Shown in pieces: positions 39,194 to 54,113 of a stretch of DNA of 54,970 bases (position 1 is the first letter of the stretch; every line of letters starts with the position of its first letter). Both the position numbers and the translations under genes were made by a program. The stretch covers positions 1-54,970 of the forward strand of contig JAAUTN010000010.1 of NCBI GenBank assembly GCA_012031415.1, written 5' to 3'. The DNA comes from Leptolyngbyaceae cyanobacterium SM1_4_3. Lineage in GTDB: Bacteria; Cyanobacteriota; Cyanobacteriia; Elainellales; Elainellaceae. Under the pieces are notes generated by a model that worked only from the letters and a program-made list of their open reading frames with translations, was not told the origin of the DNA and did no database searches.

Positions 39194-40030
39194 ATGCTTG
39201 CACACATTCTGGCGCTGACGGTTGGTTTCGGCAGTTTCATGCTCTATACGTCTGCCTTCTTCTTTCCAGAAGTTCATCGCAAAAACGACTTTGCCTGGAG
39301 CGGCGTAGGGATGTTTTATGCCCTCGTGCTGTGGGTTTGTGCCGGACGGATTACGGGCGGAGTGCTGCTGGGGCAGACTGCCAGTGTCGCGCTGTTGGGC
39401 TGGTTGGGCTGGCAGACATTGGCGCTAAGACGAACGCTGACTCCCCGTGACCAGCAAACCCGGCTACCCGGATCAGCTAAATCTTTGAGTGAAGCGTTCC
39501 AGAATGGGTTAAAGCAACTTCAGACAACGCTGCCGCAGCGATTGCAAAAGTTACCGCTGCTGAATAACCTGGTACAGCCTGTCGCGAGGTCGTTGGCGGT
39601 AATCGCCTCCTCCCTCCAAAACCTGCTCAAGCCTAAACCTAAACTTAAGCGATCGCCCAAAACCCGTTCCGCCCAACCTCGTGCTAATCCGCCTGCACCA
39701 GCCGCTGATGAAAAAGTTGAGGCTTCAGTCGAAGTGGAAGAGGCGATCGCTGAATTTGAAGATTTAGACGAATTTGAAGATTTAGACGAATTTGAAGATT
39801 TAGACGAATTTGAAGATTTAGACGAATTTGAAGATCTAGACGAATTAGAGTCGGCTGCATCATCAGACACACCAACACCCGCTGCCACTGAACTGATTCC
39901 TGAAGCAGAGGTTGTATCGGAGACGAGTTCAGAGCGATCGCCCCCCCAAAGTCCGACATCCCTAAGGCTCCGTAATTTCGCCAGTTCGAGCTGTCATCAC
40001 CAAAATTCGCTCAATCTGGGTAGGGGTTAA
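39194..40030 (+). CDS. ycf66: Ycf66-family protein with an acidic repeat tail
   Basis: The first 90 residues (ALTVGFGSFMLYTSAFFFPE, VHRKNDFAWSGVGMFYALVL, WVCAGRITGGVLLGQTASVA) match Ycf66, a plastid/cyanobacterial family with two or three membrane helices and unknown function. A basic linker follows, then five near-identical FEDLDE units (residues about 187-217), a Ser/Thr/Pro-rich stretch, and an unusual ending LRLRNFASSSCHHQNSLNLG encoded antisense to the subtilase C-terminus (69-bp convergent overlap). A run of seven C at about 39941 precedes this; with six, the protein would stop at about 39964, next to the subtilase stop codon. The true C-terminus is therefore uncertain. Confidence 0.85.
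   Translation: MLAHILALTVGFGSFMLYTSAFFFPEVHRKNDFAWSGVGMFYALVLWVCAGRITGGVLLGQTASVALLGWLGWQTLALRRTLTPRDQQTRLPGSAKSLSEAFQNGLKQLQTTLPQRLQKLPLLNNLVQPVARSLAVIASSLQNLLKPKPKLKRSPKTRSAQPRANPPAPAADEKVEASVEVEEAIAEFEDLDEFEDLDEFEDLDEFEDLDEFEDLDELESAASSDTPTPAATELIPEAEVVSETSSERSPPQSPTSLRLRNFASSSCHHQNSLNLGRG
39757..39846. repeat. 18-bp tandem repeat encoding FEDLDE
   Basis: GAATTTGAAGATTTAGAC repeats five times almost without change, encoding Glu-Phe-Glu-Asp-Leu-Asp units in the Ycf66 tail. Near identity at the DNA level implies recent expansion or ongoing copy-number change. Confidence 0.9.
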
Positions 40031-47670: not shown

Positions 47671-48342
47671 ATGGCAATTCCTAAATTAGAGTTGGTTAGC
47701 CACCATCTTTGTCCCTATGTTCAACGCGCTGTCATCACTTTGCTTGAAAAAGACATCCCTCATGAACGCACGTATATCGACCTATCGAATAAACCTGATT
47801 GGTTTCGCCAAATCTCACCATTGGGAAAAGTGCCCTTATTGAAAGTCAATGAGGAGATTCTGTTTGAGTCAGCGGTGATTTGTGAGTATTTGGATGAAAT
47901 TACACCTGGTTCATTGCACCCTGCTGATCCTTTGCAAAAGGCAAAACATCGGAGTTGGATTGAGTTTGGTTCTAACATTCTCAATAGTATTGCTGGATTC
48001 TACAACGCTCCAACTAAAGAGAGTTTTGAGCAAAAGTGTGAGGAATTAGCCAGCAAATTTTTCTGGATCGAGCAGTCCTTTAAAGGTGGTTACTTTGCTG
48101 GCGAAGCCTTTTCTCTGGTTGATGGGGTTTATGGAACAATCTTCCGCTACTTTGATGTGTTTGATACGATTGGTGAGTTTAGCATTTTTGCTAACACTCC
48201 AAAAGTAGAAGATTGGCGGCAACTCCTTCAGTCCCGATCTTCAATCCAATATGCAGTCACAGAGGATTATGCACAGCGTCTACTCATCTTTCTAAAGCAG
48301 CGCAACTCATACCTATCTATAGCGCTCCTAGATGATTTGTGA
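47671..48342 (+). CDS. Glutathione S-transferase family protein, C-terminus supplied by a repeat element
   Basis: A 223-residue GST. The thioredoxin-like N-terminal domain has the redox-type motif SHHLCPYVQRAVI (Cys14) and the glutathione-binding segment GKVPLLKVNEEILFESAVIC. The C-terminal helical domain follows (SWIEFGSNILNSIAGFY, DGVYGTIFRYFDVFD). CPY at the active site suggests an omega/zeta-like or thiol-transferase type. The last residues (IALLDDL) and the stop codon lie inside the 93-bp palindromic element at 48318-48410, so the ancestral C-terminus was probably cut or changed by its insertion. Likely induced with the SnoaL-like gene. Confidence 0.9.
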   Translation: MAIPKLELVSHHLCPYVQRAVITLLEKDIPHERTYIDLSNKPDWFRQISPLGKVPLLKVNEEILFESAVICEYLDEITPGSLHPADPLQKAKHRSWIEFGSNILNSIAGFYNAPTKESFEQKCEELASKFFWIEQSFKGGYFAGEAFSLVDGVYGTIFRYFDVFDTIGEFSIFANTPKVEDWRQLLQSRSSIQYAVTEDYAQRLLIFLKQRNSYLSIALLDDL

Positions 48343-48410
48343 AAGTGCCCGCCCGGAGGGCGGGCACTTTCACAAATCATCTTTTTGACAAATCAAATAG
48401 AATTGCTATA
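48318..48410. mobile_element. 93-bp palindromic MITE-like element, TATAGC family, copy 2
   Basis: Same length and organisation as 27959-28051: begins TATAGCGCTCCTAGAT, then 24-bp arms (GATGATTTGTGAAAGTGCCC continuing GCCC) around GGA, then CTTTTTGACAAATCAAATAG, ending AATTGCTATA. Differences from copy 1 in one arm are matched in the other, so pairing is kept. The element begins within the GST gene and contributes its stop codon. Confidence 0.85.
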
Positions 48411-48545: not shown

Positions 48546-49397
48546 CTACCCATCCATTTTCCCGACAATATCCTCATATCGAACGCGGGGAAAAACTTCT
48601 AATTGCCCGCCAATCGTGGCGTTATAGACAGTGCCGCCGTTTGTTTCGTAAAAGCTTTTGGCTTGCTTGTAAGCCTGCTCCATCCGCTCAACTTTAGGAT
48701 CGTGCCAGCGATAGCCAGGGCCAAAGTAATCGGGGTGAAAGTGGTTTACGTCGTTGGAGTGAGAGGTGATGACGTTGCCCTGCTGTTCGTCTGCTTCGGC
48801 TTTGGGTCTGTAGCTGTGGTCTACGCCGACCAGATACACTTCACGAATGCCCAGGTAGTAGGCAAGCTGGAGGCTGAGGTAGGTGACGGTGCCGCCCCAA
48901 TAAACATATTCGTCAAATTCGGCGGAGAATTGGGGGAATTTGGGATATTGGCGCAGGAAGTTGATGTAGAGGGTGTGGCGATCGCCCTTCAAGCAATACT
49001 CTAAATCCTGCGGAAAAATCTTTGTCATCTCAGTGAGCGTGTTGATCACACTGGCGCGGTCTTCGGCAACCAGGCGGTCTTCGACGGTGTAGAAGGTGGG
49101 GCGAAAGTCGATTTCGTCAAATAGCAAGAAGATGCCGTTAGAGGCGATCGTAATTTCGTTTTTGAGTTTGCTCAGGTCAGTTTCTCGCAGGCTGGGGCCA
49201 TTGCCGATGATGAAGGCGCGTCGCCCGATGTATCTGTTTTTTAGAGCCAGGAGTTTGCGATCGCTGCTAAATAGCTCAATGCCGCGTTTTGCCAGTTTGT
49301 GCTGAGTTGACCGAATCTTTTCCCGCAACTGCCGCTGCCAGTGATTTACTTTGTTCAGCACTTTAATAGAGAAGTTGGGTTGAGAAGGAAGGGGCAT
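48546..49397 (-). CDS. MptE-like / DUF115-type protein (Maf-related), glycan cassette
   Basis: The protein contains RRAFIIGNGPSLRETDLSKL then KNEITIASNGIFLLFDEIDF, and YWGGTVTYLSLQLAYYLGIR with EVYLVGVDHSYRP, the signature of the DUF115 / 6-hydroxymethylpterin diphosphokinase MptE-like family. Bacterial relatives (including Maf proteins) are often found with nonulosonic-acid genes and implicated in glycosylation of surface proteins. I prefer the ATG at 49397 (283 residues); an ATG at 49457 would overlap the upstream gene by 26 bp. Last gene of the minus-strand glycan cassette. The exact reaction is unknown. Confidence 0.8.
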   Translation of the reverse strand: MPLPSQPNFSIKVLNKVNHWQRQLREKIRSTQHKLAKRGIELFSSDRKLLALKNRYIGRRAFIIGNGPSLRETDLSKLKNEITIASNGIFLLFDEIDFRPTFYTVEDRLVAEDRASVINTLTEMTKIFPQDLEYCLKGDRHTLYINFLRQYPKFPQFSAEFDEYVYWGGTVTYLSLQLAYYLGIREVYLVGVDHSYRPKAEADEQQGNVITSHSNDVNHFHPDYFGPGYRWHDPKVERMEQAYKQAKSFYETNGGTVYNATIGGQLEVFPRVRYEDIVGKMDG

Positions 49398-49431
49398 GGC
49401 GGCAGGTGGGTAGCAATTGGTCGAACCGTAA

Positions 49432-51312
49432 CTATCTAACCGCAAAAGGGGTGCCATTCATAATGCCGTTGCAAATGGTCTGCATCGCGACAGAGCGATT
49501 GGGATGCAGCGCTTCAGCTTCAAAGGGTTTGAGCGTGTAGTTGTACAGGTAAGCCTGGTCGGTAAAAGGCGACAGGTCAAGCGATGTTTTGAACAGTGAG
49601 TAATACATAAACCGCCGTGCCCGCTGCTGCCAGTCGGCTGGAATGGGCGGCACGCCTGCCTGCAAAAAGTGCTGCATCAGGTCTAGATAAGCCGCTGGGC
49701 TAACTGCTTTGTGAGTGATATGCTCGCGGTCGTAACGGGTTTGTCCGGCGGTGATTACAGGTTTGCCAAGCAGGGTTGCTTCTAGCCCAATGGTGGAGTT
49801 GTAGACGATGCAAAACTGCGAGAGATCGATGAGTTCGTAGGAGCTAACGTACTCGGTGGGAGCGATGAAGCTGAGGTTTTTGAGGGTGTTGAATCCTTGT
49901 GCAGCCAGCCATTCACCAACGGGTTCCTGGCTGGCTTTGTCTTGGCGCAATTCGTCGGGATGGGCGCGAACAATAAACAGCGTGTCTGGATGTTTGGCGG
50001 CAAGGGTGAGGGTTGCTTTTAGCCAGTCAAACATATTCTCAAATACACGATTGGCATAGACCTGGCTGGTGTCAAAGACGACGTTGGTGAACACCACGAC
50101 AATCTGCCGATAGGCTTCTGCTTGTTGCTGCAATTCTGGGCTGATGCTTTGCATATCTTGCCAGAAGCGAACTCCAGCCATTGTGAAGTTGCCTTTTAAG
50201 CGCTGAGCCAGATATTCATCGAGTTGGACGTTTTCTTTGTCGCTCAGTTTAAAGTTGACAGGGATTTGGATTGAGTATTCTGTGGCGGCTGTGTGGGAAA
50301 AGAAGGTGGAGAGGGGCAGGAAACCGCTCTCGTAGGTGACAACCGGAATGTTGTGCAATTGGGCAACGGCTCTGGCGGTGGCTTCAGGGAAGAAGGTGCC
50401 GTTAAACAGGAGGAGCGATCGCACCCTCCTTTCAGCCAAGATCGTTTCAAGTTGCTGGATCAGGGCGATCGCCGACACAACATAAGCTGCCAAAATATCG
50501 TGCCCAGCCGTGTTCAGAGCTAAATTCCAGCGGCGCAGTCGCCAACGCACCGACGGGACACACAGTTCACCCAAATTAATCGAGCCATGACGATAAGCGA
50601 TCAGTTCCTCGGTGGTCATCGCCATGAATTTGGATAACGGGTCGTCATAACCCGTTTCGGGCGGGTAAAACGCAACGCTGTGTTGAGCCGGATACCAGGA
50701 TGTGTTGTTGGCGGTGCAGGTGTCGCAAGGCATCGGTGCCGACAGGTCATCGGGACGCGCACCCAGGAGACATTTCTCAAAGCCACCGTGACAAACCAGA
50801 TACGTGACAGACTGCCCCATCAGTCGCAGGCTCCACGTTGCCAATAGCCCCACCACTCCGTTGAAGCTCAGATTATAGATGTGGGATGAAACATCAAGAA
50901 ACAAAACCGTTGGCTGATGAGCATTGGCATATTTTGCTTCGGTCTGCTGCACTTGCCGCTCGATCGCCCGAATTCGGGTCAGCCTTAGCTCGTCGTGGAG
51001 TGTTTTGACCTCCTGATTGCGTTCTTTTAGCTCTAGCCGCACCTCTTTTAGCGATGCCCGAACTTGTTGAAGGGCAGTCTGCTCGTTGTGCAGCTTTGCC
51101 GTAATCTGCTGATTGGTTTGCTGCTGAGCATTCAACCTGATGACGGTGCGGCTAACTGATTCGCTGAGAGTGGCAAATTCCTTTGAGGTGGCGATCGCCA
51201 AGTTTTGAGGCGGCTGACCTTTCGTTATGGCAGTAAACCCATTGATCAGCCGAATCGGTCGCACGATAAACAGCCGCAGCCACAGCAGCATTCCGACTGG
51301 CAGCACTAGCAA
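49432..51312 (-). CDS. Membrane-anchored capsule-type glycosyltransferase (main part, frameshifted at the N-terminus)
   Basis: This part begins in a hydrophobic helix (LVLPVGMLLWLRLFIV), then a HAMP-like segment (RPIRLINGFTAITKGQPPQN) and a long coiled coil (about residues 60-125), followed by a GT-B-like domain (about 135-610). Key sequences are VTYESGFLPLSTFFSHTA, FIVRAHPDELRQDK, and QFCIVYNSTIGLEATLLGKP with VITAG, the pattern of capsule polysaccharide (KpsC/LpsZ-like) transferases. The nominal start is a TTG inside the membrane region; the N-terminus is in the frame at 51372-51566. A HAMP/coiled-coil stalk on such an enzyme is unusual. Acceptor unknown; context suggests a nonulosonic-acid glycan. 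Confidence 0.8.
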   Translation of the reverse strand: MLVLPVGMLLWLRLFIVRPIRLINGFTAITKGQPPQNLAIATSKEFATLSESVSRTVIRLNAQQQTNQQITAKLHNEQTALQQVRASLKEVRLELKERNQEVKTLHDELRLTRIRAIERQVQQTEAKYANAHQPTVLFLDVSSHIYNLSFNGVVGLLATWSLRLMGQSVTYLVCHGGFEKCLLGARPDDLSAPMPCDTCTANNTSWYPAQHSVAFYPPETGYDDPLSKFMAMTTEELIAYRHGSINLGELCVPSVRWRLRRWNLALNTAGHDILAAYVVSAIALIQQLETILAERRVRSLLLFNGTFFPEATARAVAQLHNIPVVTYESGFLPLSTFFSHTAATEYSIQIPVNFKLSDKENVQLDEYLAQRLKGNFTMAGVRFWQDMQSISPELQQQAEAYRQIVVVFTNVVFDTSQVYANRVFENMFDWLKATLTLAAKHPDTLFIVRAHPDELRQDKASQEPVGEWLAAQGFNTLKNLSFIAPTEYVSSYELIDLSQFCIVYNSTIGLEATLLGKPVITAGQTRYDREHITHKAVSPAAYLDLMQHFLQAGVPPIPADWQQRARRFMYYSLFKTSLDLSPFTDQAYLYNYTLKPFEAEALHPNRSVAMQTICNGIMNGTPFAVR

Positions 51313-51371
51313 AACGGCAGTGGTTAATGTCTCTGTATCCGCAAGCTCAAACTGGGCAGCAACCAGCGAGA

Positions 51372-51566
51372 TTAGGGCGATCGCCCCCCCAGCAGCAAAA
51401 ATTGCTGAGTTAAGGACAGCGATTTTGGCACCTGACGGACAAACCTGACCGCCAGAGCAGTTGACCCCAGTGGCGATCGGCTGGGCTGAGAGGAATGTGC
51501 TTGCGAAGAGTTGGACTGCGGCGAACCAGATTGCGGTGAATTCAACTGAGGTTCATCGTTAGGCAT
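51372..51566 (-). CDS. N-terminal fragment of the capsule-type glycosyltransferase (frameshifted)
   Basis: From the ATG at 51566 the frame encodes a Ser/Gln/Pro-rich segment (MPNDEPQLNSPQSGSPQSNS) followed by RFVRQVPKSLSLTQQFLLLG, the start of a membrane helix, then stops after a run of seven G (minus strand). With eight G the frame continues GAIALISLVAAQFELADTET into the 49432-51312 frame, completing a two-helix membrane hairpin. The joined protein would be about 711 residues. Confidence 0.7.
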   Translation of the reverse strand: MPNDEPQLNSPQSGSPQSNSSQAHSSQPSRSPLGSTALAVRFVRQVPKSLSLTQQFLLLGGRSP

Positions 51567-51692
51567 AGGTTTATGGCAGTACAAAGATCAGCTAGAACGA
51601 TCGGCAAGGATTGGAAATTACAGCAGTTTTTACTTGCGTAAGATACGAATTTCTGTAGGATGGTTAAGAGCTAAGGGCTAGACCGTGTTTAA

Positions 51693-51793
51693 AAACCTTT
51701 TGATCCTCCCCAACCCTCCTTAGAAAGGAGAGAACCGAACCGCTCAAAGTCCCTCTTTTCAAGGCGGATTTAGGGGGATCAAGCCAGGGTTTG
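51693..51793. repeat. C-rich palindromic element (GATCCCCC family), copy 2
   Basis: AACCTTTTGATCCTCCCCAA on the left and TTTAGGGGGATCAAGCCAGG on the right are imperfect inverted repeats. The inner part carries CCTCCTTAGAAAGGAG. It is related to 266-338. It separates the NeuB-fusion gene from the capsule-type glycosyltransferase gene. Confidence 0.65.
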
Positions 51794-51826
51794 TCCTCTT
51801 AGCCGGGAGGTATATACACGGTAGCA

Positions 51827-51868
51827 TCCCTCATCCTTCACTCCTCATCCTTCACTCCTCATCCCTCA
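51827..51868. repeat. Heptamer short tandem repeats
   Basis: CTCATCCTTCACTCCTCATC is repeated and continues TTCACTCCTCATCCCTCATC, a degenerate 7-bp periodicity (CTCATCC / TTCACTC). The repeat forms the last codons of the NeuB fusion (PLMRDEE and stop). The complement-type repeat is present at 54896-54935. Such heptamer arrays are typical of filamentous cyanobacteria. Confidence 0.75.
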
Positions 51869-54113
51869 TCAAGGGTTCCAGCCGTTCCAGGGCAATCCAA
51901 AATCCTTCCCCTGAATTCTTGTGACCCTGCCAAATTTCAGGAATGAAAGAAGCCTGGGGTGCAACCTCAACCAGGTCAGATGCCAATGCTAGAAAGTCTA
52001 TGTCCCCTTCGCCAATTTGTAGCCCTTCACCGTCTACGCCGACCGCATCGGCAATATGCAGATGAGCCGTGTAAGGGCCAACCTGGTGAATGAAAGCTTT
52101 GAAAGAGGCTTTGCGGTGGTTGCAGGCCAGCTTAGAGTGGGAAATGTCCAGGCAGAGGCGATAGCCATACTGACGGCAAAAGTCTGCCGTATCCTGCGGG
52201 TCTACAAACAGGTTGAGGTAAAGCTGTCCACCAAAATACCAGGGAAAGGGGGGCAAAGTTTGAGGTAAAATCTCTACCCCAGCAGTATCTAGCTCCGATA
52301 AACTTTTAGCAATTAAGCCGTAAAGCTGACTTCGCTTAGATGGATGAAGCGGCGCATCTTTGGTGAAGCCGCCCAGACTGGCGACAATCAGCGGCCGCTG
52401 GGCTTTGCGGAAAAAGGGTTGGAGCGATCGCGCCATGTCAACTACTCGCTGGAGTTCGCGCACCGATCGCTGTCGTTTTTCCTCATGGCGATCGCACAAA
52501 TTCAGCAGATGATCGCCCGCAAAAAAGTCAGGACTGTGAACCACCAGCCCCAGGTCATATTCCTGGTCAAAGTACGGGTGAATCTCCTGATCCATATCCT
52601 TATAGCTCAGGTGAAATTCCAGGAAATCAGGATTGGACTTTGCCAAAATCGACTTGAAATCGTGATAGCGAACGGGCACACCCCAGGGACGGTTGAACTT
52701 GTAGTGCCTTGCCTGGACTTGCTCTCGCTCCAGGTCACTAGGGAAGAAAAAGTCACCCGCCTGCATCGATCGCTTTGCCCGCTGCCCAATCAAATCAGCT
52801 TTGCGGTTGGGCTGAAGTCCGCGTCCCGGACTTTTCACGGCAATCATGGGGCTGGTGATCGTTTGTCCTGGTTCAAGGTCGCAGGTAATCACCAAACTTT
52901 TAGCCAGCGTCGTTCGATTCATCAGTTCGCCCTGGCTGGGCTTACGCTCCGAATCGCTGCCCAAAGCCTGCTCGACCTGACGAATGCCCTGCACCATCTG
53001 CTCAAATTCTTCGCGCAGCAGGCTAACCTTGTGGTCGTTGCCCTCCATCGATTTGTCCAGGGTGATGTGCTTTTCGATTAGCTTTGCGCCTTTGGCAACA
53101 GCGGCGATCGCCACATAAATGCCCCGCTCATGCCCCGAATAACCCACCGGACAGTTGCCAATTTCCCGCAGCCGCTTCAAATAGTTAAGGTTCACATCTT
53201 TGAACGGCGCAGGATAAGTCGAATTGCAGTGCAGCAGCACATAGGCTACGCCCAAATGCTTGAGCAACTCCACCGATTCAATAATTTCTGCCTCGGTAGA
53301 CATTCCCGTTGAGCAAATCAGCGGCTTACCCGTTTGCGCCAGCGCCTTCAGCAAATCATGATGGGTCAAATCCGCCGAAGCCACCTTGTAAGCTGCCATG
53401 CCGTATTCCTCTAGCAGCCGCAGACTTTCCAAATCCCAGGCGGTGCAGAGGGGTAGAATTCCTTGCTGTTGGCAGTAGTCGAAGGCGGCAAACATTTCGT
53501 CGGGGCTAAGCTGAAACTGCGACAGCAAATCCAGCACGTATTGAACACCCAGGTCTTCACTAACACTGTTGTTGCCCGCATTGCGATACAGGCTGGGCAA
53601 ATGCCGCATTTGAAATTTGGCGCAGTCGGCTCCAGCGGCGATCGCCTGATCTACCAGCCGTTTCGCAATATCCAGACTGCCATTGTGGTTAATCCCAATC
53701 TCAGCCACCACAAACGTCGGCGAATCAGCGCTGACCGTAAAAGAGCCGATTTGAATGCCATCGGTCAGGTTGCGAATGCGGGCAACGGCAACCAGCCGAT
53801 GGTGATGGTTGAGTAGGGGAATGAAGGCGATCGCTTCAGAAAAATAAGACTCAATTTTCTCTGGCGGCTCGTCCACAAAAGCGTACTTAAAAGCTTTGTT
53901 AGAAATTCTAGAAACGGGCTGATTCAGGTCGATGCTGCTTTGCTTCACTAGCCAGCGACGAAAGTCGCCATCGGTCATCACCCCTTCTAACACGCCCGCT
54001 TCAGTAATTGAGAAAATGATGCCGCTTTTGTTGTCGCTGATTTTTTGCAGCGCGTTGATGATGCTGTCGTCTGCAAAAACAATGTATTGAGTCAGATTTT
54101 TGTCAATCAGCAT
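51852..54113 (-). CDS. CBS - NeuB (nonulosonic acid synthase) - SAF - TIM-barrel fusion
   Basis: A 753-residue fusion. Residues 1-120: a CBS pair (IFSITEAGVLEGVMTDGDFR, FIPLLNHHHRLVAVARI), usually a nucleotide sensor or the input domain of sugar nucleotidyltransferases. Residues 130-375: a NeuB synthase (FVVAEIGINHNGSLDIAKRL, ADCAKFQMR, STGMSTEAEIIESVELL, LLHCNSTYPAPFKDVNL, GYSGHERGIYVAIAAVAKGA), which condenses PEP with an N-acetylated hexose to give sialic, legionaminic or pseudaminic acid. Residues 400-465: a SAF domain. Residues 475-750: a xylose-isomerase-like TIM barrel (EFHLSYKDMDQEIHPYFDQE, LCLDISHSKLACNHRKASFK, HLHIADAVGVDGEGLQIGEG), with possible sugar epimerase or isomerase activity. 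First gene of the glycan cassette. Confidence 0.92.
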   Translation of the reverse strand: MLIDKNLTQYIVFADDSIINALQKISDNKSGIIFSITEAGVLEGVMTDGDFRRWLVKQSSIDLNQPVSRISNKAFKYAFVDEPPEKIESYFSEAIAFIPLLNHHHRLVAVARIRNLTDGIQIGSFTVSADSPTFVVAEIGINHNGSLDIAKRLVDQAIAAGADCAKFQMRHLPSLYRNAGNNSVSEDLGVQYVLDLLSQFQLSPDEMFAAFDYCQQQGILPLCTAWDLESLRLLEEYGMAAYKVASADLTHHDLLKALAQTGKPLICSTGMSTEAEIIESVELLKHLGVAYVLLHCNSTYPAPFKDVNLNYLKRLREIGNCPVGYSGHERGIYVAIAAVAKGAKLIEKHITLDKSMEGNDHKVSLLREEFEQMVQGIRQVEQALGSDSERKPSQGELMNRTTLAKSLVITCDLEPGQTITSPMIAVKSPGRGLQPNRKADLIGQRAKRSMQAGDFFFPSDLEREQVQARHYKFNRPWGVPVRYHDFKSILAKSNPDFLEFHLSYKDMDQEIHPYFDQEYDLGLVVHSPDFFAGDHLLNLCDRHEEKRQRSVRELQRVVDMARSLQPFFRKAQRPLIVASLGGFTKDAPLHPSKRSQLYGLIAKSLSELDTAGVEILPQTLPPFPWYFGGQLYLNLFVDPQDTADFCRQYGYRLCLDISHSKLACNHRKASFKAFIHQVGPYTAHLHIADAVGVDGEGLQIGEGDIDFLALASDLVEVAPQASFIPEIWQGHKNSGEGFWIALERLEPLMRDEE

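Follow-up and report, generated by a model that had tools for sequence, protein, structure and literature searches.

A NeuB-type nonulosonate synthase carrying a CBS pair and a xylose-isomerase-like TIM barrel, from Leptolyngbyaceae cyanobacterium SM1_4_3, belongs to a single-origin clade found in at least nine phyla

A stretch of 54,970 nucleotides from Leptolyngbyaceae cyanobacterium SM1_4_3 (assembly GCA_012031415.1, contig JAAUTN010000010.1, positions 1 to 54,970; hereafter the window) encodes a protein in which a CBS pair, a NeuB phosphoenolpyruvate (PEP)-condensing barrel, a SAF domain, and a xylose-isomerase-like TIM barrel are joined in one chain. This fusion recurs across bacterial phyla with its architecture and its predicted catalytic residues conserved, has a single origin, is linked to neuA, the gene for CMP-sugar synthetase, and carries serine at the position of Arg314 of the Neisseria meningitidis synthase (NmeNeuB). 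That the enzyme is a nonulosonate synthase is near certain. We propose, at roughly even odds (a probability of about 0.5), that it is a self-supplying one, whose barrel makes the acceptor aldose, a sugar that probably lacks an N-acetyl group at C2, with the CBS pair exerting control.

In the proposed route, the C-terminal, metal-dependent TIM barrel would isomerize or epimerize a common sugar to an aldose, which the NeuB/SAF core would condense with PEP to a nonulosonic acid. Activity may be adjusted through the N-terminal CBS pair in response to a nucleotide, perhaps the CMP-sugar end product, which would be made by a NeuA encoded elsewhere in the genome, and a capsule-type glycosyltransferase and a DUF115 protein encoded beside the fusion would probably attach the sugar to a surface polymer or protein. 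Because the acceptor is probably not N-acetylated at C2, the product would resemble 2-keto-3-deoxynononic acid (Kdn) rather than N-acetylneuraminic (Neu5Ac), legionaminic (Leg), or pseudaminic (Pse) acid.

Results and discussion

The fusion is an intact protein of single origin

The reading frame of the fusion (Table 1) is unbroken across all 753 residues. Pfam places NeuB (PF03102) at residues 153-387 (279 bits, gathering threshold 22.1), SAF at residues 406-462 (34 bits, threshold 21), and AP_endonuc_2 (PF01261), the family of xylose isomerase-like TIM barrels, at residues 496-736 (72.6 bits, threshold 31.1). The CBS pair (PF00571) stays under its gathering threshold (15.8 against 24 bits); in NCBIfam it comes closest to the CBS regions of the KpsF/GutQ arabinose-5-phosphate isomerases, KpsF being matched at 3.6e-8 in one fusion homolog, and the CBS motif residues G49, D50, R53, and W54 are invariant in 56 homologs. 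A single scan of 84,980 genomes gave 280 candidate relatives, and the best 80 of these 280 match essentially the whole protein with 52-74% identity. With an unbroken gene here and the whole architecture found again in those 80 other loci, a chance join or assembly chimerism is excluded as the source of the fusion. The original prediction, which was made from the letters of the window alone, had described the four-part chain and proposed looking for it in other genomes. The profile matches and the 80 full-length loci confirm the chain as real, but not as something peculiar to the present cassette, because the protein is widespread, with representatives in Cyanobacteriota, Bacillota, Verrucomicrobiota, Lentisphaerota, Chloroflexota, Pseudomonadota, Thermodesulfobacteriota, Actinomycetota, and Bacteroidota, that is, in at least nine phyla.

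NeuB is present in 124 of 292 sampled genomes of the window's phylum. An open frame of fusion length (750-900 amino acids) occurs in about 21 genomes of the window's class and in none of the sampled genomes outside it, and the three long NeuB frames of this sample that were read are the fusion, with 70-72% identity. Nodularia has a homolog more than 70% identical to the window protein. An additional NeuA domain at the N terminus of long homologs is ruled out, the extensions being stop-to-stop artifacts without protein character. In a maximum-likelihood tree of the NeuB core, a branch with 100/100 support separates the fusions, together with CBS-less forms from virus-like contigs, from 30 standalone NeuBs; the fusions are one NeuB clade with a single origin. 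The smallest well-supported group containing the window protein holds sequences from UASB270, Chthoniobacterales, Anaerolineae, and Rhodospirillaceae, not those of other cyanobacteria, and therefore points to horizontal spread. A plasmid search returned a single record covering at least 80% of the query, the full-length fusion was not found in phage records, and a structure search of viral proteins with the full-length model gave nothing more than partial matches.

The NeuB/SAF core has lost the arginine that positions the N-acetyl group

Among solved structures, the core is most closely related to PseI, SpsE, and NmeNeuB. Active-site residues were mapped by alignment to the solved NmeNeuB, with residue roles taken from PMC6795526, and the PEP, metal, and catalytic positions E138, K166, Q168, T224, K243, S326, H328, E347, H349, and D360 are kept in 82 of 82 fusions. 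In NmeNeuB, Arg314 is the sole SAF residue within the active site, where it positions the N-acetyl group of N-acetylmannosamine; the R314A variant is inactive and R314K is active (PMC6795526). Alignment to 4ipi and 4ipj, whose sequences depart from that of 1xuu solely by the changes that R314A and R314K imply, sets S428 of the fusion opposite this arginine. Serine occupies the position in 80 of the 82 fusions, as it does in the CBS-less forms of the virus-like contigs, and all 30 standalone NeuBs have Arg there. The remaining NeuB active-site residues are mostly conserved in the fusions. The replacement of Arg314 suggests an acceptor aldose without a C2 acetamido group.

The TIM barrel has an intact predicted active site

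An AlphaFold2 model of the TIM barrel, built with 69 homologs, has a mean pLDDT of 94. The nearest solved folds found by a structure search with this model are L-ribulose, D-psicose, D-tagatose, and L-ketose 3-epimerases; xylose isomerases stand lower in the list, and a glucal hydratase is also among the matches. In ketose 3-epimerases and xylose isomerases, the metal and acid/base residues are E, DxxH, H, and E, in that order. The barrel shares this order and the fold (TM about 0.6-0.66) with D-psicose, D-tagatose, and L-ribulose 3-epimerases and xylose isomerase at 9-17% identity, but the barrel alone is fused to NeuB. Its E614, D656, H659, H686, and E726, assigned by motif order and not by superposition, are kept in 78-82 of 82 fusions, and about 30 more residues are invariant. 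Further invariants (R482, E499, H501, H526, Q618, W625, N634, E696, W728, and H731) suggest that the substrate differs from those of the known enzymes. We are confident that the barrel has a ketose-3-epimerase/xylose-isomerase fold with its predicted active site intact, and judged by the conserved residues it is not a decayed domain. With the predicted metal and acid/base residues present and the barrel looking catalytically intact, the earlier idea that the barrel could make the NeuB substrate within the same chain is plausible. Xylose-isomerase chemistry also requires that C2 bear a keto group or an unsubstituted hydroxyl, which is consistent with the change of Arg314 to Ser, so that the type of barrel and the lost arginine would agree.

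CBS pairs bind nucleotides, and the KpsF/GutQ/KdsD arabinose-5-phosphate isomerases, which have a related CBS pair, likewise feed a PEP-condensing ulosonate synthase, although their SIS-fold isomerase is separate from the synthase, unlike in the fusion. Feedback by the CMP-sugar through the CBS pair would be a natural guess; no paper on CBS/CMP-Kdo feedback was found in the open-access literature searched. A possible lead is the structure 4o9k, a putative CBS pair with bound CMP-Kdo.

neuA is the near-constant partner of the fusion

Listing of the neighbors of the fusion places neuA within 400 bp in 55 of 81 loci, and anywhere in the locus in 67 of 81. The prediction had seen no separate neuA-type gene and had suggested that a short, self-contained route could be present. 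The first point is correct for the window but not for the genome, where contigs C437 and C34 carry cytidylyltransferases; the absence of neuA in the window reflects contig layout, not genome content. The second point finds no support in that form, because the module normally includes neuA, and a matching neuA and SDR lie on another contig of the same genome. On this contig, C437, neuA lies beside an SDR gene. The neuA that precedes the UASB270 fusion is 63% identical to the C437 copy, and for the SDR the value is 61%, relative to the SDR of an SDR-neuA-fusion run in Anaerolineae. The C34 cytidylyltransferase was rejected as the likely partner, with about 30% identity to the fusion-linked neuAs; it adjoins a gene resembling D-3-phosphoglycerate dehydrogenase (L118, 2280-3874).

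Other genes accompany the fusion less often: SDR genes lie near it in 18 loci and Gfo/Idh genes in 10, and a DUF115 gene is the next after the fusion in three cyanobacterial loci (L034, L035, and L038). Directly downstream of neuA-fusion in three further cyanobacterial loci, L005 (353-1492) and, as cluster c30, L032 and L036, is a homolog of A-2,8-polysialyltransferase (PF07388, E 6e-71), which suggests that these organisms make a poly-nonulosonate. Export genes resembling wzm/wzt precede the fusion in many cyanobacterial loci. Glycosyltransferase, DUF115, polysialyltransferase homolog, and wzm/wzt-like neighbors would all fit a surface nonulosonate.

Supply of the acceptor aldose

Which enzyme would supply the acceptor? 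Gene absences in the present genome rest on family searches, and in this 700-contig draft no Epimerase_2 (NeuC/LegG), N-acylglucosamine 2-epimerase, or PseG exceeded its cut-off. In four near-complete genomes, each a single contig and each with a NeuB as long as the fusion (G306, G173, G239, and G273), only one intact strong WecB-like Epimerase_2 was present, and no 2-epimerase was found; Synechococcus elongatus, from the same control set, has an Epimerase_2 and no NeuB match. Four IMG/VR virus-like contigs (L120-L123) encode a NeuB-SAF-TIM protein without CBS, adjoining a homolog of GT29 sialyltransferases and with a cytidylyltransferase nearby. The simplest reading of these gene contents is that the barrel itself would supply the aldose.

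On two of the virus-like contigs, the GT29 homolog is next to the CBS-less fusion at L123:4768-7890, where the cytidylyltransferase is also adjacent, and at L120:5360-7842; on L120 a DHDPS/NanA-like aldolase gene lies directly downstream of the fusion. A PHROG search with eight proteins of these contigs gave one weak match of unknown function, and their viral origin is unconfirmed.

Several observations weigh against self-supply. Each of the 17 other fusion-bearing cyanobacteria (17 of 17) has at least one strong WecB-like Epimerase_2, so that its lack here may be an assembly gap of the draft, and a strong 2-epimerase homolog is present in six other fusion genomes. SDR, Gfo/Idh, or DegT genes are added in some loci, and the supply route may be longer. 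Other residues could replace Arg314 functionally, position 431 being mostly K, R, or Q and position 437 mostly R, and in the barrel E614 is replaced by Gln in 4 of 82 fusions. Furthermore, ketose 3-epimerases use ketoses and NeuB needs an aldose, so that the barrel must act as an aldose-ketose isomerase, like xylose isomerase, or elsewhere in the route.

It is nevertheless unlikely that the core works on a conventional acceptor, making Neu5Ac or Leg from an acetamido-aldose provided by another enzyme, with the barrel reduced to a remnant or to a structural or regulatory domain. The N-acetylneuraminate synthase model (TIGR03569, NeuB_NnaB) is the top-scoring one for the core, homologs of sialyl- and polysialyltransferases lie downstream in relatives, and some fusion genomes have the 2-epimerase homolog already mentioned, but the NeuB_NnaB score of 316.5 bits does not reach the equivalog cut-off of 399.65, nor does the score with pseudaminic acid synthase (TIGR03586) reach its own (234.6 against 340.25 bits). 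The replacement of Arg314, the retention of the barrel's catalytic residues across phyla, and the failure of family searches to find NeuC, LegG, AGE, or PseG in the present genome argue in the same direction.

We also doubt a tailoring role in which the barrel, be it an epimerase, a hydrolase, or a dehydratase, would modify the sugar once NeuB has acted or at the stage of a nucleotide-linked precursor, in concert with the SDR and Gfo/Idh proteins. Such a role would be in keeping with the SDR and Gfo/Idh genes near the fusion, with the SDR that adjoins neuA in the present genome, with the hydrolases among AP_endonuc_2 proteins (weak CbiR similarity), and with the glucal hydratase among the fold matches; however, most loci are without accessory genes while neuA is nearly constant, and C3 of a nonulosonic acid is deoxy, which makes ketose 3-epimerization of the product impossible. 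Least probable is a shorter product, in which arabinose or another pentose would come from the barrel and the core would form an eight-carbon acid like 3-deoxy-manno-octulosonic acid (Kdo) instead of a nine-carbon one: the CBS pair is nearest to arabinose-5-phosphate isomerases, which feed Kdo synthesis, and the family of the partner cytidylyltransferase also includes KdsB, but the core is a NeuB with SAF, not a KdsA, and the C437 cytidylyltransferase scores 147 bits with the PseF model and at most 37 bits with KdsB models.

The adjacent glycosyltransferase and DUF115 genes

Two genes follow the fusion on the same strand (Table 1), and both were assigned by the original prediction to the families found here: the first product matches Capsule_synth (PF05159) with 38.3 bits (gathering threshold 20) and the second MptE-like/DUF115 (PF01973) with 57.6 bits (threshold 34.6), the two genes overlapping by 26 bp. 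The glycosyltransferase does not reach the BFO_1060 family glycosyltransferase model (NF046086; 45 bits against a curated cut-off of 200), and no paper on BFO_1060 was found in the open-access literature searched. The predicted HAMP tether is not supported by Pfam, which gave no match to HAMP (at E<=1) or to another membrane family; the HAMP-like stretch is visible by eye only, and the closest homolog, in a Chloroflexi metagenome-assembled genome (L059), is without that region.

The annotated TTG start of the glycosyltransferase gene is probably not the true one. The frame from the ATG at 51566 encodes a leader rich in Q and S together with a hydrophobic stretch and stops just past a G7 run, after which reading resumes in the glycosyltransferase frame. 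The break reflects either an indel introduced in sequencing or assembly, a genuine frameshift, or phase variation at the tract. The G7 run (51384-51390) overlaps a GGCGATCGCC (HIP1) site.

Table 1. Positions of the fusion, its domains, and neighboring features in the window
Feature	Position	Strand	Basis
Four-domain nonulosonate synthase gene, 753 amino acids (CBS pair - NeuB - SAF - xylose-isomerase-like TIM barrel)	51852..54113	-	Profile matches and homologs
CBS pair, residues 1-112, nearest to CBS region of KpsF/GutQ arabinose-5-phosphate isomerases	53778..54113	-	Below Pfam CBS cut-off; NCBIfam relatives
NeuB PEP-condensing barrel, residues 118-390	52944..53762	-	Pfam and conserved E138, K166, Q168, T224, K243, Y300, S326, H328, E347, H349, D360
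SAF (antifreeze-like) domain, residues 406-462; S428 at NmeNeuB Arg314 position	52728..52898	-	Pfam and alignment
Xylose-isomerase-like/ketose-3-epimerase-like TIM barrel, residues 470-750; E614, D656, H659, H686, E726	51864..52706	-	Pfam, model, conservation
Capsule-type glycosyltransferase, 626 amino acids counted from TTG, N-terminal part resembling a coiled coil; candidate transferase for the nonulosonate	49432..51312	-	Pfam, homologs
Probable real 5' end of glycosyltransferase gene, starting at ATG 51566 and put out of frame by G7 run 51384-51390	51313..51566	-	Frame reading
MptE-like/DUF115 protein, 303 amino acids; candidate glycan transferase or partner	48546..49457	-	Pfam, homologs
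Perfect long hairpin downstream of DUF115 gene, GATGATTTGTGAAAGTGCCCGCCC-TCC-GGGCGGGCACTTTCACAAATCATC; terminator-like or small repeat element	48331..48381	-	Read directly

The L059 genome carries, on one strand, neuA, the fusion, the glycosyltransferase gene, two methyltransferase-like genes, and the DUF115 gene. Its glycosyltransferase is 39% identical to that of the window over 528 residues (E 3e-145) and its DUF115 protein 36% identical. The recurrence of the set together with neuA in a Chloroflexi genome upholds the earlier view that fusion, glycosyltransferase, and DUF115 protein belong together as one unit. Within the window's order, the glycosyltransferase is almost private to the present genome: it was not found in 35 relatives save for one distant match (24%), and an ancestral cassette of the order is rejected on this ground. 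A second MptE-like/DUF115 paralog, 40% identical to the L059 protein, is encoded beside an SDR gene on contig C284 of the same genome (L119, 9478-10335).

Upstream of the fusion, the last 857 bp of the window hold a histidine-kinase-like open reading frame on the opposite strand. In a genome of the same genus, the fusion N terminus, 92% identical, ends at a contig edge and is preceded by a sensor-like protein, also on the opposite strand. Elsewhere in the window, the C-terminal half of an open reading frame at 39194-40030 contains the acidic repeat EFEDLDEFEDLDEFEDLD in tandem.

Relation to known synthases

The fusion has the NeuB-SAF core in common with NmeNeuB/SiaC of N. meningitidis (1xuu, 4ipi, 4ipj), with conserved counterparts of E25, Q55, T110, K129, Y186, S213, H215, and E234, and differs from it by Ser for Arg314, by Trp for F112, and by the added CBS pair and TIM barrel. 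Core fold and family are also shared with PseI (8h2c, TIGR03586) and the SpsE/LegI-type synthases (1vli), but these keep Arg at the 314 position and lack CBS and TIM barrel domains, and the fusion stays under the equivalog cut-off. A neighboring pathway step is also fused to a nonulosonate synthase in the Leptospira NeuB-phosphatase, with a phosphatase in place of the isomerase-like barrel and no mention of CBS (PMC3438082). Shewanella sfmA (PMC3765264) was rejected as the same fusion, its 290-residue NeuB being too short for the fused domains. No paper describing the fusion architecture was found in the open-access literature searched, and an earlier description elsewhere is possible. The fusion is a real, well conserved, and apparently uncharacterized variant of nonulosonate synthase.

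Genome-based prediction of nonulosonic acids usually relies on neuC, legG, or pseG next to neuB. Tentatively, and at clearly less than even odds, we suggest that the fusion marks a previously unrecognized pan-phylum route of two near-constant genes, neuA and a NeuB equipped with a ketose/aldose isomerase of its own and with a CBS sensor of the end product. By this route, a sugar of central metabolism would be turned into a Kdn-type (5-hydroxy) nonulosonate with no need of NeuC, LegG, PseG, or a 2-epimerase. This route might also be present, CBS-less and with a GT29 homolog, on the virus-like contigs. A large NeuB clade of single origin, found in at least nine phyla, has its own isomerase-like domain and a changed N-acetyl-reading residue, and it fits no prediction based on neuC, legG, or pseG. 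If the reading proposed here is right, a common bacterial surface sugar would have been misannotated as sialic acid.

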